A DNA stretch of 64,000 nucleotides from Methanoculleus bourgensis MS2 (GTDB lineage Archaea; Halobacteriota; Methanomicrobia; Methanomicrobiales; Methanoculleaceae). The stretch covers positions 1,054,001 to 1,118,000 of the forward strand of contig NC_018227.2 of assembly GCF_000304355.2 (NCBI RefSeq). The letters are read 5' to 3'. The translations under genes and the position numbers were made by a program. Of this stretch, positions 18,178 to 35,657 are shown piece after piece. The notes under the pieces were generated by a model. It was not told where the DNA came from and did not search any database. It saw nothing but the letters and a program-made list of their open reading frames with translations. Within the stretch, counting starts at the first letter, position 1, and each line of letters opens with the position of its first letter.

Positions 18178-18672
18178 CGTCCCCCCGTTCCAGATTGGAT
18201 CTCCCTTCTATTCACCCTCGCCAGATCATCGCCTCCCCCGCCTCCCTGGAAAAGCGCCCTGTCGTCAGCGTGGTGGATACGGCAGTCATCGATGACCATC
18301 CGCCGGCACGAATGCCACTTTCCGTTCGACGCTGGTGACACCCGGCCCGGCAGCTAACATCCCTCCTCCGGAAAGCGCCGCGACGGCGTATCGACTGACA
18401 GTGCACTTTCACTATGCGCGGTTCTCCCTTATATCCCCCCTCATCGACCTCTTTTGCGTGCGGGAACCTGCTGAAGGTCCGGCGCCTTAACCGGGGCGTC
18501 CCGTCCATTTCAGCACCGATCACCAGGATCCGCCCGCACAGGAGAAAAACATGAGAAAGAACATCCAGGAAGCAAGCGGCCACAGCCCGGACCCGATAGC
18601 AAAGCCTGTCCGGGAGAACCGGGCCGCCGGTGGTAAAGCCAGATTGATGACGTTACACAACGAGGAATCCAA
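18178..18672. other. Intergenic region with a module fragment (18230-18335)
   Basis: No intact gene. 18235-18335 (CCTCCCTGGAAAAG .. ACAGTCATCGATGA-like) is similar to 34335-34430, where it follows a membrane-protein cassette. The last part encodes RRHECHFPFDAG here and HRDELHFQFDAG there, so it is a piece of an unknown gene. A TATA-like CTTATATCCC lies near 18430. Confidence 0.45.
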
Positions 18673-18957
18673 ATGCACAGTACAGACAGGATAGACGGCA
18701 GCCCACGGGATGAAGCGTGCGCCAACATCGATTCACACGGGACTGCCGATAACTCTTCTCGCTCAAGAGCAATAAGAGCAGCTACCGAGGAGCGACGCGC
18801 AGGCGTCGTCCCGCTCTACCTGATACCACAGGTCGCGGCCACGGAGATCAACCGGTGCGGCCGGACATTGCGGGAGATCCACGTTGTTCGGACGAAATGC
18901 CACTATTACATCGTCACCGTCATCCGGACGAAGCAGGAGGCGGCGGGCCATGACTGA
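18673..18957 (+). CDS. Hypothetical protein, first gene of the primase operon
   Basis: 94 residues, mostly polar: MHSTDRIDGSPRDEACANIDSHG .. then a folded-looking C terminus VVPLYLIPQVAATEINRCGRTLREIHVVRTKCHYYIVTVIRT. No family was recognised. It overlaps the next gene by 8 bp, and that gene overlaps the primase gene by 4 bp, so the three form a tight operon. It may be a small accessory factor of replication. Confidence 0.5.
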   Translation: MHSTDRIDGSPRDEACANIDSHGTADNSSRSRAIRAATEERRAGVVPLYLIPQVAATEINRCGRTLREIHVVRTKCHYYIVTVIRTKQEAAGHD

Positions 18958-19291
18958 GCCCGGCACCCTCTCCCACGGCACCAGCGGAGCGCTCCACATC
19001 TCCGTCGACGCCGAGAAGTACCGGATCGAGGCCGAAGACGCGAGGAACCTGCTCTTCTACGGCAGGGTCATCCCGATCTGCGAGGATCGCTCGCGGATGA
19101 CCCCGGGCGGGATCCTGGCAAGCGAGACCGCCATCGAGGGACACGCGGCGGTGAACGCTTCCGGCAAGGCGGTGATGCTCCATACCCGCGTCGGTTCTTA
19201 CATCATCCCGCTCGTCAGTCTCCAGCGGGTTGCCCGCGGGGAGCCCATCTCGGCCCCCCTCTTCCCCCTTATCCCGGGGGTGACGGGATGA
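18950..19291 (+). CDS. Hypothetical protein, second gene of the primase operon
   Basis: 113 residues starting MTEPGTLSHGTSGALHISVDAEKYRIEAEDARNLLFYGRVIPICED. It has a regular beta-strand pattern (KAVMLHTRVGSYIIPLVSLQRVARGE) but no recognised family. ATGA overlaps on both sides show translational coupling with the genes before and after. By position it is probably a partner of the primase-helicase. Confidence 0.6.
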   Translation: MTEPGTLSHGTSGALHISVDAEKYRIEAEDARNLLFYGRVIPICEDRSRMTPGGILASETAIEGHAAVNASGKAVMLHTRVGSYIIPLVSLQRVARGEPISAPLFPLIPGVTG

Positions 19292-22098
19292 GAGACAAAG
19301 TTAGAAACACGGTGGACATGCTCGCCTCCGATGGCGACGTGGTCGAGGTCCGGGCGCTCGCCGACGGCGCCACGCACTCGGGCTACTTCGACGACTACGA
19401 AGCACTCGCCCGGGCCGCAGAAGCCCTCGACGCCGACCCGGCGGTCGCTGGAATCTATGTCACCCTGAATGCGGTGACCCCGGCGCTCCTCGCCCGGCGG
19501 GCGAACCGGATCAAGATGCGCCTTTCCCGGAAGGATGCCACGACCGCCGACGCCGACATCCTCCGCCGGCGCTGGCTCCCGGTCGATATCGACCCGGTCC
19601 GGCCGAGCGGGGTCTCGTCGACCGACGCCGAGCACGCGGCGGCGCTCAATGCCGCAGAAAGGATCGCAGCCTACCTCGCCGAACAGGGCTTTCCCGCACC
19701 CCTCCGGGCGGACTCCGGGAACGGCGCCCACCTCCTCTACCGGATCGACCTCCCGAATGACGATGCGGCGACGGAGGTCGTCAGGGGCGCGCTCGCCACC
19801 CTCGACACCTTCTTCTCGAACGACGTGATCACCGTCGATACCGCAAACCATAACGCTGCCCGGATCTGGAAACTCTACGGGACGCTCTCAAGGAAGGGCG
19901 ACAACACCTCCGAGCGCCCCCACCGGCGGGCGAAGATCCTCTCCGCTCCAGAGGAGATGGAGGTTGTTCCCGCGGAAAGGCTCCGCCACCTCGCGGGAAT
20001 CCTCCCAAAGGAAGAACCAGCCGCTCCACGGAGGAAGACCGGCATCGATCTCGCCTCCTGGCTCCTCGACCACGGGATCGCCGTCCGGAGCACACGGCCC
20101 TACCAGGGCGGCACCCTCTACGTCCTCGATGAGTGCCCGTTCTCGTCAGCCCACAAGGACGGGGCCTTCGCGATCCAGTTCGCAAACGGCGCCGTCTTCG
20201 CCGGCTGTCACCACGCAACCTGCGGCGGGGGCGCCCAGCGCTGGCCGGAACTCCGGGGGATGTACGAGCCGAAGAAACGGAGGCCGGGGGTGAGAAAGCA
20301 GGAGATGGTGTCAGAAACGAGAGAAACGGAGGAGACCTCCAATCCCCCTCCCGCTCCCGACAACTACCGCGAACGTGCCCTTGCGATCCTGCAGCACGGC
20401 GATCCCCTTGCGTTCCTCCTCGACACCTTCAACCGCGAGCATGTCGGCGACCGGACCGTCGCCGAGTGTCTCGTCCTCTCCCTTGCCTCGCAGTCGGTCG
20501 AGAACACGAACGGGCTGCACGTCTCCATCTCCGGCAACTCCGGGAAGGGGAAGAGCCACGCCTGCACCACCATGCTCAAGCAGATCCCGGCAGAGTACCG
20601 CCTCGCCGGGACCGTCTCGAACAAGGCTCTCTACTACAACAACGGCCTTCAGCCCGGCACCGTCTTCCTCTTTGACGACGTTTCGCTCTCCGACGACCTC
20701 CAGGAGGTCCTCAAAGCCGCGACTGCGAACTTCCGGGTGAGCATCCAGCACCAGACAGTGACCGCCGACCGGAAACTTCAGGTCTGTTCAATCCCCGAGC
20801 GGTGCGTCTGGTGGCTCGCGAAGGTCGAAGACGCCGGGGACGACCAGGTGGCAAACCGGATGCTCACGGTCTGGATCGACGACTCCCTCGAACAGGATGA
20901 GCGGGTGCTCCGGCACATGAAGGAGCGGGAGGCCAGAGAAGACGGCGGCGACGGCGATGACCCCGAACTCCCCGTCTGCCGGGCAATTTGGGGAATCCTC
21001 AAAGAGGAGCGCCTCCACGTCTCCATCCCATATGCCCGGAGAGTGCAGTTCTCTACGACCACGAACCGCCGCAATCCGGGCATCCTCTTCGACCTGATCA
21101 AGGCCTCGGCCCTCCTCCACCGCTTCCAGCGGGAGGAGTACGATGGCGGCATCCGGGCAAACCGGGACGATTTCGCCGCAGCCTCCCGAATCTATGCGGC
21201 CATCAACGGCGAGGCCGGCGGGCAGGAGACGAAGATGACGAAGAACGAGGCGGCGGCGCTTGCGACAGTCGCGCAGATGGGCTGGGAGCAGTTCACGATC
21301 AAGATGCTCCAGGAGGCGCTCGGGCTCTCCTACCACCAGACCTACCGCATCCTCCACGGCTACGCGAGCCGGGGGACGACCTACTCCGGCCTCCTGGAGA
21401 AGTGTCCGGCGGTCGGGTTCTCCGACACGATGGTCACCGAGGACCTGGAAGGCTATGCGGTGCGGCGGCGGGAGCACCTCTTCTCCTTCGATCGCAACGT
21501 CTACCAGCACTGGGCTCGGGGGGCGGCAGTGTGGATCGATGAGGGGGGAAGCGGGGACCGGGACGACGGTCCCGGCCCTTGCAACATTGCAGCAGAGTTA
21601 CCGCAGGATTCCAGCACCGGGTGCAACAATCAAACGGCCGGAGAAGGCGCCGGATCTGACAGTACTTGTACAGATAGAGAGATGCGTCTCTCTCTTAGTA
21701 CTAAAGTACAGCAGAATACACACACAGTCCCCGGTATCGGTTCCGGGGTGGGTGAGTGTGCGGGTGTGTGCGATATCCGGAATGCAGGAAATGTCCCTAA
21801 GATACCGTCATCTGGGGGTGCAAACATGAATCGAGCGCCAATACACCCCCATTTGGGTGGCATCGCCTGCTGCGATGCGCTGAAAACAGGTGCGAAGGGA
21901 GGGGGGGTGCCGCAAGAGTCTCTGTCGGGGGTGCTGGATCACCGGGAGTTCTCCCGGGTGAGGGTTGAGATCGGCCGGTGCGACGTCTGCGGGGCGGGGA
22001 AGGCAGTCTATCACTCGCGGGAGGCACTGACGAAGCTGTGTGAGGGGTGCTATGCCCGGTTGGTGCGGGAGTGGAATAAGGAGGGAGGGGTGAGATGA
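19288..22098 (+). CDS. AEP primase-polymerase / zinc finger / P-loop ATPase replication protein
   Basis: 936 residues, a multidomain replication initiator. Residues about 50-220 form an archaeo-eukaryotic primase core: the metal-binding LPVDID (98-102), DSGNGAHLLYRID with the sxH-type His (142-154), and HNAARIWKLYGTLSRKGD (188-205). A zinc-binding segment C-x5-H..GCHHATCGG lies at 283-314. Residues about 370-620 are a P-loop ATPase with Walker A GNSGKGKS (416-423) and Walker B VFLFDD (459-464). A helix-turn-helix (TIKMLQEALGLSYHQTYRILHG) follows, and a C-terminal zinc ribbon CDVCG..CEGCY ends the protein. Such proteins replicate plasmids or viruses. An iteron cluster lies 700 bp downstream. 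Decayed copies of its 3' end occur at 30765 and 35170. Confidence 0.85.
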   Translation: MRDKVRNTVDMLASDGDVVEVRALADGATHSGYFDDYEALARAAEALDADPAVAGIYVTLNAVTPALLARRANRIKMRLSRKDATTADADILRRRWLPVDIDPVRPSGVSSTDAEHAAALNAAERIAAYLAEQGFPAPLRADSGNGAHLLYRIDLPNDDAATEVVRGALATLDTFFSNDVITVDTANHNAARIWKLYGTLSRKGDNTSERPHRRAKILSAPEEMEVVPAERLRHLAGILPKEEPAAPRRKTGIDLASWLLDHGIAVRSTRPYQGGTLYVLDECPFSSAHKDGAFAIQFANGAVFAGCHHATCGGGAQRWPELRGMYEPKKRRPGVRKQEMVSETRETEETSNPPPAPDNYRERALAILQHGDPLAFLLDTFNREHVGDRTVAECLVLSLASQSVENTNGLHVSISGNSGKGKSHACTTMLKQIPAEYRLAGTVSNKALYYNNGLQPGTVFLFDDVSLSDDLQEVLKAATANFRVSIQHQTVTADRKLQVCSIPERCVWWLAKVEDAGDDQVANRMLTVWIDDSLEQDERVLRHMKEREAREDGGDGDDPELPVCRAIWGILKEERLHVSIPYARRVQFSTTTNRRNPGILFDLIKASALLHRFQREEYDGGIRANRDDFAAASRIYAAINGEAGGQETKMTKNEAAALATVAQMGWEQFTIKMLQEALGLSYHQTYRILHGYASRGTTYSGLLEKCPAVGFSDTMVTEDLEGYAVRRREHLFSFDRNVYQHWARGAAVWIDEGGSGDRDDGPGPCNIAAELPQDSSTGCNNQTAGEGAGSDSTCTDREMRLSLSTKVQQNTHTVPGIGSGVGECAGVCDIRNAGNVPKIPSSGGANMNRAPIHPHLGGIACCDALKTGAKGGGVPQESLSGVLDHREFSRVRVEIGRCDVCGAGKAVYHSREALTKLCEGCYARLVREWNKEGGVR

Positions 22099-22335
22099 GA
22101 CCTTCTCCCTGAGATCATTAATTGTGGATGAGCCTCGTGGCATATCACGTCAGCGCGGGATACTTCCCTCCGGTCGTGGCGTCTGCCTGATCTTCTTTTC
22201 CTGTCCGGGATCTCTGATGACCATGACCGGCTCGAACCTCGCCGATCATCGCCTGCTGGAAGTGCTCGTCGCGCCGTGCTCTGCACCGCGCTCCTCGCAC
22301 GGAGGGGTGGCCTTGCGCCATCCCTCAAACGACCC
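22099..22335. other. Short intergenic region after the primase gene
   Basis: No gene is recognised. It leads without a clear boundary into the first membrane-protein cassette. Confidence 0.3.
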
Positions 22336-22530
22336 CCATCGCCGTCCTCGCCCGCCGCGCCTCCCCCCGCCTCCTCGCCTACGCCGTCCCGGTGCTGATG
22401 TTCTGCGGGCTCGCCTGGGAGGTCGTCGTCGACTTCCTGTTCGCCACCAGCTGCTGGGAGGGCTACCACTTCTGGATACCCGTAGTGGAGTACATCTGGT
22501 ACATCCAGTACACGATCTTCCCGCTCTGAT
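22336..22530 (+). pseudogene. Membrane-protein C-terminal cassette #1
   Basis: The frame reads VLARRASPRLLAYAVPVLMFCGLAW .. FATSCWEGYHFWIPVVEYIWYIQYTIFPL then TGA. It is the last ~60 residues of a polytopic membrane protein, the same C terminus as in cassettes #2, #4 and #5. No N-terminal part or start is present. Confidence 0.65.
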
Positions 22531-22796
22531 GAGGAGAGCGGCCCAACGAAGAACGAGACGGCGGCGCCCGCCGCCATCGCCCGGATGGGGCAGGAGACGT
22601 TCACCGCCCGGCAAGTTTCAGGCGGCCCCTCAATGGCTACGTCGACCGGGTGTGGCCTCCCCCCCTCGAATAATGCGAGGGGGGGTGCGGGGAACGACTT
22701 CCCCGCAGGGGAAGGAGTTAGAGCACCGCGAGGCTGCGGCGAATCCGTGGCGTTTCAACCCCCACGAAACACCGATCCTCTCAATCTCAGGTGGCA

Positions 22797-22859
22797 GATG
22801 TCGGACACCTCAAAACGGAAGATGTCCGATATGTCCGATAAATGTCCGATAAATGTCCA
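22797..22859. repeat. Iteron cluster, candidate replication origin
   Basis: Direct repeats of TGTCCGATA: four units at 22822-22858 with 9-11 bp periodicity (GATGTCCGATATGTCCGATA and on), preceded by one inverted copy TCGGACA at 22801. AT-rich ATTATCTATC follows. Decayed versions lie at about 31395-31435 and 35455-35505, each after a copy of the primase 3' end. The arrangement fits an iteron-controlled origin next to its initiator gene. Confidence 0.6.
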
Positions 22860-22884
22860 TTATCTATCAGGTCCTGTCATCGTA

Positions 22885-24273
22885 TCAGGCGTTCCAGGGA
22901 GGCAACCGGGCTAAAACGTACTTTCTGCCCCTCCTCGCACCGACTGCCTCCAACAAGCCACGATGGACGAGATCGAGAAGATCGCGGTATCGGGTCTTCT
23001 CCGATACCCCCGGAGCAATCGATGCATAGTCTACAGCTGTTATAGCGCCGTGCTCCCTGGCAAAGGACATCGCCTGCAGCTGCCGCTCGTTCAGGCCGAT
23101 GGCCCGCAGAGAACTCTCGGTAAACCGCAGGTCTTTTCGCATGCGCACAATGAACCCGAAGGAATCGCTTTGAAATTCAGGTTCCGGGAGTCCGGCCTCT
23201 GCGAGTGCGTCCACAATTCGCCCGATGCCGGAACCATACCGTTCGACAAACCCGGCGAGGTAAAATATCTTTGCTATGAGAGGGTTGCGCAGGAACGAGT
23301 AGTGCTCGGTCTTGAGCATCTCAATCGTGATTCCCTGGGGCAGAGAGCCCGGGTTATGGAACCGTATAGCGTCATCATAGATGCGGATCTGGGTCTGGAT
23401 GTCGGTGTTGAAATAATCCCGGTGGATAAGCGCGTTAAGGAGCGCTTCACGAATTGCCAGTAACGGATAGTCCCAGATCTCCTTGCGCTGAAAGGACTCC
23501 TGCATTGCATCCGCCGAAATCTCATATCGGACATCGATGAAACTTTTCACCCGCTCCTCCGCCCTCATGAATTGCTGGATGAGGTTCCCGGAGAACTCCT
23601 CATCGCCGATGATGATATCTCCCCCCTTGAATCGGCCGACCCGGGTAGTGGTGTTGACAAAGAACCGTTGCGGCTCTCTGCCGAAGAGCATAATGGCGGC
23701 ATTGGTCAATTTGCCATTGACAGTAAGTTCTAAGCGGCGCAGAATCGAGTCCACGGGCTCTTCTTCATCCGCAGTATCAAGCCGGTTCGACCGCTTTGCC
23801 AGACGAACGAACATCCTGACCACCCCGGGATCGATATCGTCGATGGAGTAGTCGCCGGTGACCGTATCCCAGGTAATCCCGGATTTGCTGATGAGAAAGT
23901 GAACAAGCTCCTGTCCCGCAAGGTCGAATGTGTTGCTTCCGCTACGCCGATAATACCGACCGTCGCACGAGACCGGGACAGGGGAAGGCGAGACCGTGAT
24001 GCTGATGATCTCTTTTCCTGCGACCGTTTCAGCGACAACGGAGGGGGTGATACTAAGTTTGTTTCGGATCTTGTTGGGCAGTTCTCGCAAGAGCCGCTTC
24101 ACCTGATGGATGCCGACCGGTCTTCCGGCATCATCGATGCCTAGCTTAAGCACCCCGCCGCTTGTATTTGCAAATGCGCAGAGGGTCTTGAGACATTCGT
24201 CCTTCCAGGACTCCTTGAATTCAACGTTCTGGCTCTCGATCATGGTGGATACGGTTGACTGTTGATAGTACAT
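22885..24273 (-). CDS. Schlafen/AlbA_2-type ATP-binding protein, RecG-like C-terminal domain
   Basis: 462 residues. The N-terminal AlbA_2 (AAA_4/Schlafen) domain shows VEFKESWKDECLKTLCAFANTSGGVLKLGIDDAGRPVGI (about 18-55) and ISITVSPSPVPVSCDGRYYRRSGSNT. The middle and C-terminal HATPase_c_4-like part has YPLLAIREALLNALIHRDYF, RFHNPGSLPQGI, LRNPLIAKIFYLAGFVERYGSGIGRI. A winged helix ends the protein (SLRAIGLNERQLQAMSFAREHGAITAVDYAS). Family members are linked with DNA/RNA binding, transcription control and phage defence. The ATG at 24243 is an alternative start. It is convergent to the primase operon. Confidence 0.85.
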   Translation of the reverse strand: MYYQQSTVSTMIESQNVEFKESWKDECLKTLCAFANTSGGVLKLGIDDAGRPVGIHQVKRLLRELPNKIRNKLSITPSVVAETVAGKEIISITVSPSPVPVSCDGRYYRRSGSNTFDLAGQELVHFLISKSGITWDTVTGDYSIDDIDPGVVRMFVRLAKRSNRLDTADEEEPVDSILRRLELTVNGKLTNAAIMLFGREPQRFFVNTTTRVGRFKGGDIIIGDEEFSGNLIQQFMRAEERVKSFIDVRYEISADAMQESFQRKEIWDYPLLAIREALLNALIHRDYFNTDIQTQIRIYDDAIRFHNPGSLPQGITIEMLKTEHYSFLRNPLIAKIFYLAGFVERYGSGIGRIVDALAEAGLPEPEFQSDSFGFIVRMRKDLRFTESSLRAIGLNERQLQAMSFAREHGAITAVDYASIAPGVSEKTRYRDLLDLVHRGLLEAVGARRGRKYVLARLPPWNA

Positions 24274-24423: not shown

Positions 24424-24592
24424 TAATCCATACACGCCGCCGGTATGTACATCACGGTTCACAGGGCAGGATCTCCCCTCTCCGTAAAACCCCTGATTGG
24501 CCACTGTATCGCCACATCTCCTCAAATATCGTCTTTCAAGGTATGTAATGGGCATGTAATCGGCCGTGCGGCGCCCCAGGCTGGTCATCATA
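24424..24592. repeat. Repeat R3, copy 1 (copy 2 at 32718-32886)
   Basis: About 165 bp, roughly 85 % identical by eye to 32718-32886. Starts GTAATCC.TACACGCCGCCGG, contains CCCCTGATTGGCCACTGTATCG, ends GGTATGTAA.GGGC.TGTAATC. No coding potential and no transposase. Each copy stands directly before a membrane-protein cassette region. Confidence 0.7.
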
Positions 24593-24639
24593 TCGATGCC
24601 AACAGAGGCCTCCCTTCCTCTATAACCCGCCCTCACGAC

Positions 24640-25405
24640 CTCCTGCGCCCGGGTTGCGGGGTATGCCTCCGCCGCGGGAAAGGCGCCGCAGGGCCTCTTG
24701 AGCACCGTGGCCGGGCACTACACCCCGCCGCCCGGCGACCTCCTCACCGGCCTCTACGGCGCCTTCTTCGAGCCCGCCCGTGCCGGCTCCGCCGCGTTCT
24801 TCCAGGTCTCCCCGCTCTCGTTCTTCGCCCTCCTCCGCCGGGGATCGACCGGGATCAGCGCCCGGGACGCCCGGCTCCTCGCCTTCTTCGCCCTCGCCGC
24901 CGCCCTCGTGGTCCTCGCCTACGCCCGCTCCCTCCCCGGGATGTCGGCAGATCCCGGGTTCGTCCCCGACATGCGCTACCTCTCCCCGGCCTACCTCCCC
25001 CTGCTCGTCATCGGGGTCTATGCCTTAAAACACGCCGGCCTCGACGCCGACGGGGTCGGGGAGGCGCTCCGGACGCTCTGCTGGCTCGCGGTCATCGACC
25101 TCCCGCTCATCTACGTCGTCCTCCAGGTCGTCGCCGGCAACAACCCCGCCGGGCAGGTCGCGTTCATCACAACCCTCACCTCCGTCTTCCTCGCCGGGGC
25201 GGCGGCGCTGTATGCCGCCGTCCTCGCCCGCCACGCCTCCCCCCGCCTCCTCGCCTACGCGGTCCCGGTGCTGATGCTCTTCTCGCTCGCCTGGCTCGCG
25301 GTCGTCGACTTCCGGTTCGCCACGAGCTGCTGGGAGGGCTACCACTTCTGGATACCCGTGGTGGAGTATATCTGGTACATCCAGTACACCATCTTCCCGC
25401 TCTGA
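24640..25405 (+). pseudogene. Membrane-protein C-terminal cassette #2 (longest copy)
   Basis: The open frame from about 24640 to the TGA at 25403 encodes about 250 residues: YASAAGKAPQGLL .. ALVVLAYARSLPGMSADPGF, VPDMRYLSPAYLPLLVIGVYALKHAGL .. and the C terminus FATSCWEGYHFWIPVVEYIWYIQYTIFPL. It has about six membrane helices. The segment DMRYLSPAYLPLL is similar in style to the C-terminal region of GT-C (dolichyl-phosphate-mannose) glycosyltransferases, but the family is not certain. It has no normal start codon (TTG 24698 is the first candidate), and the N-terminal half of such a protein is missing. Confidence 0.6.
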
Positions 25406-25496
25406 CGAGGAGAGCGGCCCGACGAAGAACAGGACGGCAACGGGAGCACCACTTTGCCGGGTACAGGGAGTACCGGGAGCTGGTGCCGGGATGGGA

Positions 25497-25580
25497 AGAC
25501 GCCACCCCGAGGGAAAAGTCCGGATTGTTGAGCCCGGCGTTCAGGTCCAGGAGGCATACCGGAAGAAATCGGAAAGGCAG
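25497..25580 (+). repeat. HEPN-gene 5' fragment, shared by three loci
   Basis: About 70 bp encoding RIVEPGVQVQEAYRKKSE occurs here, at 29272-29342 and in the intact HEPN gene at 32039-32110. In the first two loci homology stops abruptly at AAATCGGAAAG. This marks a recombination junction. Confidence 0.7.
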
Positions 25581-25694
25581 TTGTTCAGGCTGTCCAGTGA
25601 GAGTACCTGCTCTATCAGGGTACTCATTCTGGCACATTTATTCATTATGGCAAATGTGCACGTCAATAAACACCAGAACGATCCACAGAGATGC

Positions 25695-25925
25695 ATGTCT
25701 TCTGCCACACGCGATACCGGCAGCCAGATCAAGCGCATTCCCGTGAAAGAACCCACCCGGAGGGATCTGCACGACCTCAAAGAAGCTGGAGAGAGCTACG
25801 ATGAGCTGCTTAGCCGGATGATCCGGCGCGAGCGTGACTATCGCGACTGGAAGATGATCGTTGAGATCGAGGAGGCCGGCGAGTTCGTAGCCTTCGACCC
25901 GGCCGAGATCCTGCGGGACGATTGA
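25695..25925 (+). CDS. Antitoxin, copy 1 (toxin truncated)
   Basis: 76 residues from ATG 25695 (MSSATRDTGSQIKRIPVKEPTRRDLHDLKEAGESYDELLSRMIRRERDYRDWKMIVEIEEAGEFVAFDPAEILRDD); an in-frame ATG at 25647 is an alternative start. The central KRIPVKEPTRRDLHDLKEAGESYDELLSRMI is a ribbon-helix-helix-like DNA-binding unit of archaeal antitoxins. It differs from copy 2 (29458) at two residues after this start. The following toxin gene is reduced to 22 codons, so this copy is an orphan antitoxin that could still neutralise the toxin of copy 2. Confidence 0.75.
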   Translation: MSSATRDTGSQIKRIPVKEPTRRDLHDLKEAGESYDELLSRMIRRERDYRDWKMIVEIEEAGEFVAFDPAEILRDD

Positions 25926-28475: not shown

Positions 28476-28625
28476 CACCCGCACCACCCGGCAACAGGCG
28501 CCGGTGCGCTGTGAGATCCCGGAGGCGATGATGACAGAGGCCGTCGCCAATGCGGTCATCTGTCGCGACTCTACGAGGAACGGCAGTTCCAGGTGATGCT
28601 CTTCTCTGACCGGGATCAGCCCCCC
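28476..28625 (+). pseudogene. Schlafen/RecG-like protein fragment
   Basis: APVRCEIPEAMMTEAVANAVICRDSTRNGS followed, after a shift, by QVMLFSDR. It corresponds to the RYEIPxEVVxEAxxNAVxHRDY helix of RecG-like ATP-binding proteins (compare 30035). It is cut by membrane cassette #4. Confidence 0.6.
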
Positions 28626-28633
28626 GGGACGCA

Positions 28634-29166
28634 TGAATCCTCGTCTTCTTCGCCCTCGCCGCCGCCCTCGTGGTGCTCGCCTACGCCCGCACCCTCCCCG
28701 GGATGTCGACAAGTCCCGGCATCGTCCCGGACATGCGCTACCTCTCCCCGGCTTACCTCCCGATGCCCGTCATGGGGTCTATGCCCTGAAACATGCCGGC
28801 CTTAACGGCGATGGGGTCCGGGAGGCGCTCCGGGCGCTCTTCTGGCTCGCGGTCATCGACCTCCCGCTCATCTTCATCATCCTCCAGACCGTCGCCGGCA
28901 ACAACCCCGCAGGACAGGTCACGTTTCTCATGTACCTCACCTACCTCTTCCTCGCCGGGGCCGCGGTGCTCTATGCCGCCGTGCTCGCCCGCCGTGCCTC
29001 CCCCCGCCTCCTCGCCTACGCGGTCCCGGTCCTGATGCTCTTCTCGCTCGCCTGGCTTGCGGTCGTCGACTTCCGGTTCGCCACGAGCTGCTGGGAGGGC
29101 TACCACTTCTGGATACCGGTGGTGGAGCACGTCTGGTACATCCAGTACACCATCTTCCCGCTCTGA
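28634..29166 (+). pseudogene. Membrane-protein C-terminal cassette #4
   Basis: LVFFALAAALVVLAYARTLPGMSTSPGIVPDMRYLSPAYLP, one frameshift near 28770, then VYALKHAGLNGDGVREALRALFWLAVIDLPLIFII .. and the common C terminus WIPVVEHVWYIQYTIFPL. Together with the following ~550 bp it repeats 24900-25985. Confidence 0.65.
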
Positions 29167-29457
29167 GGGCGGGAGACCGGACCGATGAAGAACAGGACGG
29201 CAACGGGAGCACCGCTTTGCCGGGTACAGAGAGTACCGGGAACTGGTGCCGGGATGGGAGGACGCCACCCCGAGGGAACGATCCGGATTGTTGAGCCCGG
29301 CGTTCAGGTCCAGGAGGCATACCGGAAGAAATCGGAAAGGTGGCTGTTCAGGCTGTCCAGTGAGAGTACCTGCTCTATCAGGGTACTCATTCTGGCACAT
29401 TTATTCATTATGGCAAATGTGCACATCAATAAATACCAGAACGATCCACAGAGATGC

Positions 29458-29688
29458 ATGTCTTCTGCCACACGTGATACCGGCAGCCAGATCAAGCGCA
29501 TTCCCGTGAAAGAACCCACCTGGAGGGATCTGCACGACCTCAAAGAAGCCGGAGAGAGCTACGATGACCTGCTTAGCCGGATGATCCGGCGCGAGCGTGA
29601 CTATCGCGACTGGAAGATGATCGTCGAGATCGAGGAGGCCGGCGAGTTCGTAGCCTTCGACCCGGACGAGATCCTGCGGGACGATTGA
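29458..29688 (+). CDS. Antitoxin, copy 2 (with intact toxin)
   Basis: 76 residues from ATG 29458, same family as the copy at 25695 (two substitutions after this start: TWRDL for TRRDL, and DPDEIL for DPAEIL, plus DD for DE in the middle). The RelE-type toxin starts 22 bp downstream with GTG. Together they form the only complete pair of this type in the window. It would bind DNA as a ribbon-helix-helix dimer and mask the toxin through its acidic C terminus. Confidence 0.8.
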   Translation: MSSATRDTGSQIKRIPVKEPTWRDLHDLKEAGESYDDLLSRMIRRERDYRDWKMIVEIEEAGEFVAFDPDEILRDD

Positions 29689-29709
29689 GGGGCCGGGGAG
29701 CAGGAGAGC

Positions 29710-29991
29710 GTGTTCACCATTCTGATCGAGAGGAAAGCACGGGAGTTCTTAAAGGGGCTCCCCCCAAAAACCCGACGCATCATCGTTGAAAAGATACAGG
29801 ATCTCGCGGATGACCCGTTTCCAGGAGGAAACAAGGAAAAACTTGAGTGTCCCCATCCCCCTGCCGTCTACCGCCTCCATATCAGCAGATCCTTCACCGT
29901 CTTTTACATCATTGAGCACGAGGGGAGCGCCGTCAAGATCGAGAAGATCGTGACGATCGAGAGGGCCCACAAGGAGTATTCACGCCGGTGA
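29710..29991 (+). CDS. RelE-family toxin
   Basis: 93 residues with a GTG start: FTILIERKAREFLKGLPPKTRRIIVEKIQDLADDPFPGGNKEKLE .. VYRLHISRSFTVFYIIEHEGSAVKIEKIVTIERAHKEY. The fold and the R-L-H-I-S-R-S-F-T-V-F-Y strand match archaeal RelE mRNA interferases. Arg and Lys in the central basic patch are kept. It follows the antitoxin at 29458 by 22 bp. Truncated copy at 25947. Confidence 0.85.
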   Translation: MFTILIERKAREFLKGLPPKTRRIIVEKIQDLADDPFPGGNKEKLECPHPPAVYRLHISRSFTVFYIIEHEGSAVKIEKIVTIERAHKEYSRR

Positions 29992-30001
29992 GGTCCGGGC
30001 C

Positions 30002-30230
30002 GTGCCCGCGGCTCCGGATGATGGCGAAGCCGGCCCGCAGGCCCCGGTGCGCTACGAGATCCCAAAAGAGGTGGTGGCAGAGGCGTTCGTCAACGCCGTT
30101 GCCCGCCGTGACTACAGGAGCAACGGCAGCGTCCAGGTGATGCTCCCCCTCAGATCTGCCTCGCGATCAGGAACCCGGGCACGCTCCCGCCGTCGCTGAC
30201 GCTCGAAAAACTCCGGCAGGCCCACTCCTC
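30002..30230 (+). pseudogene. Schlafen/RecG-like protein fragment
   Basis: APVRYEIPKEVVAEAFVNAVARRDYRSNGSVQVML, then after a shift ICLAIRNPGTLPPSLTLEKLRQAHSS. It is the central helix and NPG loop of a RecG-like ATP-binding protein. It is joined directly to membrane cassette #5, as 28476 is joined to #4. Confidence 0.65.
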
Positions 30231-30727
30231 GCCACCGTCCTTGTGGTGCTCGCCTACGCCCGCACCATCCCTGGGATGTCGACAAGCCCCGGCATCGTCC
30301 CCGACATGCGCTACCTCTCCCCGGCCTACCTCCCCCTGCTCGTCATCGGGGTCTATGCCCTGAAACACGCCGGCCTCGACGGCGATGGGGTGGGGGAGGC
30401 GCTCCGGACGCTCTTCTGGCTCGTGGTCATCGCCCTCCCGTTGATATTCATCATTCTTCAGGTCATCGCCGGCAACAACCCCACTGGACAGGTCACGTTC
30501 CTCATGTACCTCACCTACCTCTTCCTCGCCGGGGCCGCGGTGCTCTATGCCGCTGTGCCTCCCCCCACCTCCTCGCCTACGCAGTCCCGGTCCTGATGCT
30601 CTTTTCGCTCGCCTGGCTCGCGGTCGTCGACTTCCGGTTCGCCACGAGCTGCTGGGAGGGCTACCACTTCTGGATACCGGTGGTGGAGCACGTCTGGTAC
30701 ATCCAGTACACCATCTTCCCGCTCTGA
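30231..30727 (+). pseudogene. Membrane-protein C-terminal cassette #5
   Basis: LVVLAYARTIPGMSTSPGIVPDMRYLSPAYLPLLVIGVYALKHAGLDGDGVGEALRTLFWLVVIALPLIFII .., a frameshift near 30557, then LLAYAVPVLMLFSLAWLAVVDFRFATSCWEGYHFWIPVVEHVWYIQYTIFPL. Confidence 0.65.
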
Positions 30728-30764
30728 GGGTGATGGCCCGATGAGGGCGGGGACCGGGACGGCG

Positions 30765-31280
30765 GTTTTGGCCCTGGCGACTCTTACAGCATTGCAGCAG
30801 GTTTTCAGCAGAATTCCAGCACCGGCCGCGAAGATCAAACGGCCCGGAGAGGTGCCGGATCTGCCAGTACTTGTACAGATAGAGAGAAGCATCTCTCTCT
30901 CTCAGTACTAAAGTACAGCAGAACACCCACACAGCCCCCGGTACCGGTTCCGGGGCGGGTGAGTGTGCGGGTGTGTGATATCCGGAATGCAGGAAATGAT
31001 CCCATGATACCGCCGTTGAAGGGCGGAAACTTCAATCAAGCGCCATTTAGTAGTCCTTTGATTGACATCACCTGCTGCAACGTGCTGAAAAGAGGTGCAA
31101 AGCGAGAGCCTGTGCTGCAAGAGTCTCTACCCGGGGTGCTTGACCCCTGGATGTTTGAGTGGGTGAAGACGGAACTCGGCCGGTGCGATCCCTGTGACCA
31201 TGGAAAGGCGGTGTATCGATCAGAGGAGGCGCAGGCGAAGGGTGCTACGCCCAGCCGGTGCGGGAGAGGGGCGTGAGGGA
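30765..31280 (+). pseudogene. Primase gene 3'-end copy 2
   Basis: Nucleotide similarity to 21570-22090 over about 500 bp: TTGCAGCA..TTCCAGCACCGG, then the GTACTTGTACAGATAGAGAGA stretch, the CGGTTCCGGGG.GGGTGAGTGTG stretch, and a frame ending VKTELGRCDPCDHGKAVYRSEEAQAKG. The last zinc-ribbon half (LCEGCYARLVREW) is lost. Confidence 0.7.
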
Positions 31281-31394
31281 GGGGGTGCGATGAACGACTT
31301 CCTCGACGGGGAGGGAGTTTGAGCACCACGAGCCTCGCGGTGAACTCGTGGCGTTGTAGTCCTCCACGAACCAGAGTATCCCCTCAATGCAAGA

Positions 31395-33060: not shown

Positions 33061-33368
33061 CCGCACGATCACCACCACCCAGCCGACGACCGCGCCGGCC
33101 CCGACATGCGCTACCTCTCCCCGGCCTACCTCCCCATGTTCGTCATGGGGTCTATGCCCTGAAATACGCCGGCCTCGACGGCGACGGGGTGGCGCTCCGG
33201 ACACTCTTCCGGTTCGCGGTCATCGACCTCCCGCTCATCTTCATCATCCTCCAGACCGTCGCCGGGAACAACCCCGCCGGGCAGGTCGCGTTCATCACAA
33301 CCCTCACCTACATCTTCCTCGCCGGGGCGAATCTATGCGCCGGTAAACAACCCCTCTTCAGACAATGA
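33061..33368 (+). pseudogene. Membrane-protein cassette #6 (decayed)
   Basis: GPDMRYLSPAYLPMFVMG then a frameshift, then YAGLDGDGV-ALRTLFRFAVIDLPLIFIILQTVAGNNPAGQVAFITTLTYIFLAGA. It ends inside the protein; the C-terminal WIPVVE..IFPL is absent. Confidence 0.6.
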
Positions 33369-34069: not shown

Positions 34070-34330
34070 ACGAGACCCTTTTTAGCGATCCTGACGTCTT
34101 CGAGCCCGCGTTCGTCCCCTGAAGTACGCCGGCCTGGACAGCGACGGGGTCTGGGAGGCGCTCCGGACACTCTTCCGGCTCGCGGTCATCGACCTCCCGC
34201 TCATCTACGTCGTCCTCCTGGTCGTCGCCGGCCAGAACCCCGCCGGGCAGGTCGCGTTCATCACACCCCTCACCTACGTCTTCCTCGCCGGGGCCGCGGT
34301 GCTCTACATCGCTGTGCTCGCCAACCGTGC
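34070..34330 (+). pseudogene. Membrane-protein cassette #7 (decayed)
   Basis: LKYAGLDSDGVWEALRTLFRLAVIDLPLIYVVLLVVAGQNPAGQVAFITPLTYVFLAGAAVLYIAVLANRAS. Only the middle part remains. It continues into the fragment also seen at 18235 (HRDELHFQFDAGRYRGWVAELAVRLEE). Confidence 0.6.
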
Positions 34331-35169
34331 CTCCCTCGCTTCCTGGAGAAGTGCCCTGCCATCAGTGCAGTGGACACGACAGTCATCGACGACTCCACCG
34401 GGACGAACTCCACTTCCAGTTCGACGCCGGGCGCTACCGGGGGTGGGTAGCAGAACTCGCGGTTCGGCTAGAGGAGGACTCCCCACCACCTTCTGGCGGG
34501 AGTTGCAACATGCGTAACCCTTGCTGCAAAGGGGAGCGCAAACATAGTTGCAAAGAGATCGAGGGTGAGAGTTCTCAAGGAATGGAGAGTATTTGATGAA
34601 CAAAGAGATTTTCCCTGAGATCGTTCACAGCGATCAGAGGCCGTTTGCAGCAAATTCCGGATCACACAGTCCATCCGATCAGGTTCCACTGGAAGAGCCC
34701 AGGGATCGCGTGCATGGCTCGGTTGTGCCGTGTGTTTCCGGACTTGCTGCAAGTCAACTACCCCCCGCTAACGCAGGGGGCTTGCAGCGAGGATCTCATG
34801 GAGACCACGACGATGCAATTTGATTCGCACGAAGGTTGCTTTAGCCAGCCTTATTCGTGCAGGCCGGTTGACGCGGCCCCTACCGATTATCCGCGGAACC
34901 ACGGAATCATCGGCTACTTGCTCCCCACCCGGCAGCGCACATCATACGCAAGTAGTAGTGTGGTTGAAACCTCCTCTTCAGGAGTCAGCGTCAGTGCGCT
35001 AGTACACAGTGGATCGACTCGAGGACACAAAAACATTATGGAGGAGGCAATTCCTCCCCCCGCTTGCGCAGGGGGTCTCCTTGCCCGAAGAGATGAAAAG
35101 ATCGAAAATGATGATTTAACGATGTGTCGTAAAAATCTCGGTGTATCAGAGTTTTCGACTGCCAAAAGT
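34331..35169. other. Decayed module region with IS200/IS605-like hairpins
   Basis: 34331-34480 holds the fragment shared with 18235. Hairpins ACTACCCCCCGCTAACGCAGGGGGCTTGC (34755-34785) and TCCCCCCGCTTGCGCAGGGGG (35049-35070) resemble the TnpB element end at 15665. No tnpB or tnpA coding sequence was found between them. Other ORFs here look random. Confidence 0.5.
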
Positions 35170-35505
35170 GTTTGCGCTCCTATTTGCGCACCCCTTTGGA
35201 GCACAGCCGCAAATGCTGCAAACAGTCTCCGGCTGCTCTCCGGTGTGCTTGACCCGGGGACGGTTGCCCGGGTGAAGACCGAGAGCCCGGCCGGGTGCGA
35301 TCCCTGCGATCATGGGGAAGGCAGTGTATCGATCACAGGAGGCACAGGCGAAGGGTTCTACACTCAACCGGTGCGGGAGAGGGGCACGAGGGAGGGGTGC
35401 GATGAATCCGCGGCGTTGCAACCCCCATGAAACACCGATCCTCTCAATCCCAGGTGGCGGATATCGGGCACCCAAAACGGAAGATGTCCGATATGTCCAA
35501 TAAAT
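35170..35505 (+). pseudogene. Primase gene 3'-end copy 3 and decayed iterons
   Basis: The stretch GGTGTGCTTGACCCGGGGAC .. GGGTGAAGACCGA .. CCGGGTGCGATCCCTGCGATC repeats the primase end (VRVEIGRCDVCG region) and copy 2. From 35425 CCGATCCTCTCAATC.CAGGTGGC .. AAAACGGAAGATGTCCGATATGTCC matches 22775-22840, with two TGTCCGATA-like units left. Confidence 0.6.
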
Positions 35506-35657
35506 GCGGCGGAAGGAACTGGTTTTCGAGATTAACTTGACATCGATGCTCAAGATCTGGTTCTAACGAACCATCGCACTGCGAACCCCGGGTTTCTCGA
35601 ACTCCTGCCTTTCAGGCAGTCGTCCTTCGGGCACTTCTGCGTGAGCCGATGAGGTAT

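Follow-up and report, generated by a model that had tools for sequence, protein, structure and literature searches.

The window analysed here, 64,000 nucleotides long, corresponds to positions 1054001-1118000 of the 2,789,774-bp single-contig genome of Methanoculleus bourgensis MS2. Its segment 18404-22098 is an intact yet stranded orphan replication module of a plasmid-like integrative element: an operon whose last core gene encodes a protein of 936 amino acids (aa), in which an archaeo-eukaryotic primase (AEP) domain is joined to a zinc finger, an AAA+ ATPase, a helix-turn-helix (HTH) and a zinc ribbon. The features of this module, and the repeats located downstream, are given below; L- and G-numbers denote the loci and the genomes that were compared.

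18404..18672, plus strand: conserved left edge of the replication operon with its promoter and leader; TATA-like CTTATATC near 18430
18673..18957, plus strand: open reading frame (ORF) A, 94 aa, conserved accessory protein of no known family
18951..19291, plus strand: ORF B, 113 aa from the ATG at 18951, no known family; overlaps ORF A and the primase start
19288..22098, plus strand: AEP primase, zinc finger, AAA+ ATPase, HTH and zinc ribbon initiator, 936 aa
20134..20223, plus strand: zinc finger C283-H289-C307-C312, near-invariant over alignment A3
20365..21207, plus strand: AAA+ ATPase domain, Walker A G416-K422; Walker A and B residues invariant
21322..21360, plus strand: HTH recognition helix GLSYHQTYRILHG, whose recognition pentad tracks the iteron motif at matched overall identity
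21535..21915, plus strand: coding linker between the HTH and the C-terminal zinc ribbon, proposed origin
21663..21722, no strand: AT-rich palindromic core GTACTTGTACAGATAGAGAGATGCGTCTCTCTCTTAGTACTAAAGTACAGCA, lowest GC of the gene (0.38), DNA fold z = -4.0
21973..22056, plus strand: C-terminal zinc ribbon CDVC...CEGC; C898, C901, C918 and C921 invariant
22797..22859, no strand: downstream repeats, three exact and one degenerate TGTCCGATA and one inverted-type unit

An earlier note, made from the letters alone, described three coupled genes ending in the 936-aa primase. All three ORFs were found, and the stops and starts of ORF A, ORF B and the primase overlap successively. DNA similarity to the paralogue in the same genome, and to the copies of G027, G030 and G036, starts at 18404-18408. 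For ORF B, a TTG at 18884 is also open and would extend the product to 135 aa. The two upstream proteins, which the same note could not recognise, are conserved partners without a known family: ORF A has no match in Pfam, PHROG or NCBIfam, and ORF B none in Pfam. Nearly every Methanoculleus copy has both of them ahead of the primase, in the conserved order A-B-primase. The primase has 264 relatives across the Methanomicrobiales; among 80 loci from several genera, ORF A was found in 38 and ORF B in 39. In L048 (from 12167), a fourth operon gene, coding for a small predicted membrane protein, overlaps the primase stop (ATGA), and remnants of it follow other copies.

The single 936-aa sequence gave no confident Pfam or NCBIfam family; two of its relatives match the Pfam LigD Prim-Pol family. 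Residue conservation was scored on an alignment of 67 relatives (A3), in which the AEP motifs D100/D102, H148 and D184 are invariant in all 66-67 rows covering them. Support for the AAA+ and HTH folds comes from an AlphaFold model predicted from a diverse alignment (mean predicted local distance difference test, pLDDT, of 88; near-identical sequences alone gave 47). The best solved-structure matches of this model in Foldseek are MCM helicases, for example 4r7z_A (target TM 0.62), and its viral structure matches include the fusellovirus protein A460. Compared with L031 and L035, the ratio of nonsynonymous to synonymous divergence (dN/dS) is 0.15-0.22 over the AEP domain and 0.11-0.17 over the ATPase and HTH; the gene is under purifying selection.

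The primase gene is multicopy: its own genome has four full-length copies, and of 40 genomes of the family, 31 contain a match; the best 80 relatives belong to Methanoculleus, Methanofollis, Methanogenium, Methanolinea and Methanoregula. The copies are dispersed, their number is high and variable, the loci differ between genomes and several congeners have none at all, which agrees with the plasmid-like element suggested earlier and not with a housekeeping gene. Some copies add, upstream, an Orc1/Cdc6-like gene and genes for a 168-aa and an 83-aa protein. A Xer-like tyrosine recombinase is found in the integrase-bearing relatives L235, L037, L038, L039, L204, L239 and L240. In close relatives, the 3' half of a tRNA-Leu precedes the integrase start by 54-113 bp, and an intact tRNA-Leu lies at the far side, ~10.6 kb on in L039 and ~16.4 kb on in the MS2 genome itself. 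At the window copy, neither an integrase nor a tRNA-Leu fragment (attachment site, att) was found. The earlier remark that no integrase and no capsid gene was seen is right for the window copy; relatives do carry an integrase.

It is highly improbable that the operon is a domesticated chromosomal function retained by the host. The intact open frames, the purifying selection and the lack of an integrase nearby would suit such a role, but the variable copy number, the empty congeners and the differing loci would not, and intact relatives bear both integrase and att. A transposon with TCAC/GTGA ends was also considered, as the unit is sharply bounded at 18404 and at the stop of the primase, which had looked like termini; it was dropped for want of a target duplication and on account of the fourth gene after the stop in some copies and of the intact relatives that use an integrase at tRNA-Leu. 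No capsid or packaging genes were seen among the neighbours scanned. The 168-aa companion, tried as a capsid candidate and set aside, has no match in the viral, phage, plasmid or IMG/VR collections; the IMG/VR sequences share only the AEP domain with the primase, at no more than 47% identity. A separate element of the MS2 genome, at 1256288-1272771 (L235, L241), has an intact Xer-like integrase beside a tRNA-Leu fragment and ends near an intact tRNA-Leu(TAG); it carries ORF A, a truncated ORF B, c3, c4 and Orc1 genes, and no primase match in the part searched (L235).

The primase gene itself, and not the DNA downstream of it, appears to hold the strongest origin signals of the element, which makes the linker between the HTH and the zinc ribbon the better candidate. 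In scans of the whole gene over 70 relatives, the most repetitive 360-bp window falls in the linker in 54 genes (~20% expected), and the 60-bp window of lowest GC in 69 (median 0.37 vs. 0.62 for the gene). In 56 of the 70 genes, the top 7-mer is spread over three or more frame/strand classes, with motifs on both strands, as expected of DNA rather than peptide repeats. The motif TGCAA/TTGCA is present 120 times in 20 linkers vs. 17.0 expected (0/200 shuffles), a density of 13.3/kb compared with 0.38/kb in the rest of those 20 genes. The whole-gene scans for repetitiveness and GC are fairer tests than the TGCAA/TTGCA count, because the linker had been singled out only after its odd conservation was noticed. 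The window linker has five such sites, at 21579, 21580, 21587, 21622 and 21819. When repeats were searched in the larger form of the element, many chance pairs were returned, and the best inverted repeat (L033, 44 nt) lay in the primase linker.

The repeat motif of the linker differs by subfamily (TGCAAC, GCTGTCA and GCTGCCA are among those seen), and it varies together with the recognition helix of the HTH. Motif similarity between genes at 75-85% identity is 0.43 when the recognition pentad is the same and 0.08 when it differs (0/2000 permutations); at 60-75% identity, the values are 0.26 and 0.07. The palindromic core is ~94% conserved over 15 copies, intact and broken, while its upstream flanks are only ~55% conserved. 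It was located at 30 sites in 13 genomes, against none for the reversed-pattern control, and it persists in non-coding remnants of the gene. Between the window and L031, synonymous divergence (dS) is 0.31 in the linker and 0.53-0.82 in the other domains, with a linker dN/dS of 0.73; over the window clade, the linker shows roughly half the synonymous divergence of the other domains. The simplest reading of the linker repeats and of the AT minimum would be an iteron origin embedded in the initiator gene.

Several observations weigh against this reading, or against that of a plasmid-like replicon. In 16 genes, those of the window clade included, the most repetitive window falls outside the linker, and the window clade offers only five short sites; what speaks for an origin in the window copy is its palindromic core, its GC minimum and the pattern seen across the clade. 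The set as a whole is stronger evidence than any one gene: motif counts exceed those of shuffles in 51 of 70 genes, and five copies of one 7-mer are also reached by 26 of 210 control segments. All pairs that share a pentad have more than 60% identity (n = 11 and 36), and the permutations shuffled the labels without preserving the tree, so that relatedness is only partly controlled. Solo copies of the core repeatedly break near 21579, which may go back to few events, and the low GC of this fast-evolving linker could be partly due to relaxed coding constraint. The circular relatives that the earlier note envisaged did not come to light: no plasmid or phage record covers most of the primase, and neither IMG/VR nor the contig ends, which lack terminal repeats, yielded a circular form.

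The in-gene repeats might instead serve the protein to repress its own operon, as operator sites or as a messenger RNA structure. Genes are commonly autoregulated through sites within or close to them, and the palindromic core folds well as a single strand. However, the promoter is far away from these sites, which are located towards the 3' end of the operon's last core gene and coincide with the GC minimum in nearly all genes scanned. Moreover, motifs on both strands are not expected of an RNA element, and the core persists where the gene does not. Autorepression is therefore an unlikely account of these repeats.

The downstream repeats had been described as four direct and one inverted. They are real, although the count of four is slightly generous: TGTCCGATA is exact at 22823, 22832 and 22843, the fourth unit is a degenerate TGTCCATTA, and the inverted-type TGTCGGACA lies near 22800. 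With at most one mismatch, ATGTCCGATA occurs at ten sites in the window vs. 3.3 expected (0/100 shuffles), and any 9-mer is found three times within 60 bp in only 7 of 2000 shuffles of the repeat region. Their assignment to the window operon was not confirmed by the comparison of genomes: G018 and G017 share the repeat-bearing segment 22337-22917 at 95-97% identity, with no intact primase adjoining it. This conservation, together with the older primase remnant that the segment carries (22546-22614), indicates that it is present independently of the window primase. Ten such repeat blocks were counted in seven genomes of the genus, often beside a primase 3' end; in five of these ten sites, an AlbA-type gene abuts the block in convergent orientation.

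An origin placed downstream, with the primase binding the TGTCCGATA iterons 700 bp past its stop, would resemble the downstream stem-loop of pRN1, whose origin sits 3' of its prim-pol gene (PMC4234260). In L044 (at 8 bp), L038 and L039, the block does come shortly after the end of a primase gene, and in G005 it follows C-terminal fragments. Still, most full-length copies in 20 loci lack such repeats, the in-gene repeats are far more widespread, and the block is kept without an adjoining intact primase and beside AlbA-type genes as just described. We consider this placement improbable. The best explanation for the downstream TGTCCGATA repeats is that they derive from an older element remnant; as the block follows the primase 3' end elsewhere, it may be an accessory site in some elements.

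Taken as a whole, the locus is probably a stranded module of a plasmid-like integrative element with its origin inside the initiator's own gene, the downstream repeats being left from an older remnant. We infer a replication cycle in which the HTH of the 936-aa protein would bind the iterons in the very DNA that codes for its disordered linker, the AAA+ ring would open the AT-rich palindromic core and, in vivo, the AEP domain would lay the first primer, with ORFs A and B assisting or regulating initiation. The element would be mobile in its integrase-bearing relatives, which would insert at tRNA-Leu 3' ends by means of the Xer-like tyrosine recombinase; the window copy would have lost integrase and att.

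About 23 of the 30 core sites are broken copies without an intact initiator. They might be kept as solo origins, acting either as chromosomal decoys that titrate the initiator of an incoming element, a role suggested by a paper on ectopic lambda origins (PMC4488673), or as satellites replicated by that initiator in trans. We hold this to be quite unlikely; the solo copies may be plain debris.

In its described features, the family is of the kind reported as arCOG07809, or Mpal_2033-type, small integrated prim-pol elements of methanogens, with relatives including Methanoregula and Methanolinea (Makarova et al. 2014; PMC4158269, in its passages on these elements). Those elements likewise combine primase, ATPase/helicase, HTH and zinc finger in one protein and are small; they are described without capsid genes, and none was seen among the neighbours scanned here. 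According to the same passages, an integrase and an integration site belong to several, not all, members; the window copy has neither. No origin appears in that description, whereas here putative subfamily-specific iterons and an AT-rich core lie in the initiator gene, the ORF A and B partners are defined, and close integrases stand beside tRNA-Leu fragments.

A parallel is offered by ori-lambda, located in gene O (PMC5043065): there too, iterons lie within the initiator gene, and the embedded region serves both as DNA signal and as protein code. The repeat array in the initiator gene is found for the present family, though it is weak in the window copy, and the AT-rich region is present. Here, however, the initiator is an archaeal AEP-AAA+ protein, not an O protein, and the predicted iterons vary by subfamily together with the HTH helix. 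The pRN1 plasmids (ORF904; PMC4234260) also have a short operon with a small protein upstream of a multidomain prim-pol, ATPase and DNA-binding protein. They differ in the position of their origin, a stem-loop downstream of the gene, and, judging from the model, the ATPase here would resemble the MCM AAA+ rather than superfamily 3 (SF3). The pRN1-type Prim-Pol PF09250 has no match in the M. bourgensis MS2 genome. If the initiator gene does contain the origin, the protein and its start site would move together in every case; this order-wide family of archaeal replicons would have the two on a single stretch of DNA and would be a counterpart of ori-lambda in archaea that evolved with another enzyme. 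Each such gene would reveal its binding specificity through its HTH helix and its repeats, origins and compatibility groups would be predictable from sequence, and a vector backbone for methanogens might be obtained.

The region around the window copy is a graveyard of broken primase copies, with the following features.

18240..18332, plus strand: HTH-region fragment left from another primase copy, immediately left of the intact unit
22337..22536, plus strand: right junction, marked by the 3' part of a chromosomal membrane-protein gene that is multicopy
22546..22614, plus strand: remnant of an older primase copy adjoining the iterons; also in L129 without an intact primase beside it
22885..24273, minus strand: Schlafen/AlbA_2 and RecG-C-like regulator (PF04326 4.5e-18, PF13749 3.3e-23), its 3' end abutting the iterons
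30747..31388, plus strand: primase tail, a broken copy that includes the palindromic core (from 30865)
35093..35506, plus strand: broken copy of the primase tail, then the same iteron block (35484)

Rfam gave no match in 16000-40000. Pieces of the membrane-protein gene (433 aa) recur at 22337-22536, 24445-25746, 28608-29748, 30227-30727, 33096-33328 and 34117-34344; a 190-bp 3' part is ~90% conserved across species, and the array looks shaped by gene conversion. At 22690-22760 and at many Methanoculleus loci, short variable hairpins alternate in arrays with the near-constant linkers GAGTTCGAG and GAGCAACGAC. Such arrays follow the primase stop in several loci (e.g., L036, L039 and L046), and in L036 a single unit also lies within the primase gene and disrupts it; the genome has 35 occurrences of GGAGTTCGAG vs. 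13 of the reversed pattern. They are possibly a small mobile palindrome family. Lastly, in Methanogenium marinum (L183, 432-4646), a long repeat array, CRISPR-like and with a repeated peptide pattern in its translated ORFs, lies directly upstream of a primase operon.

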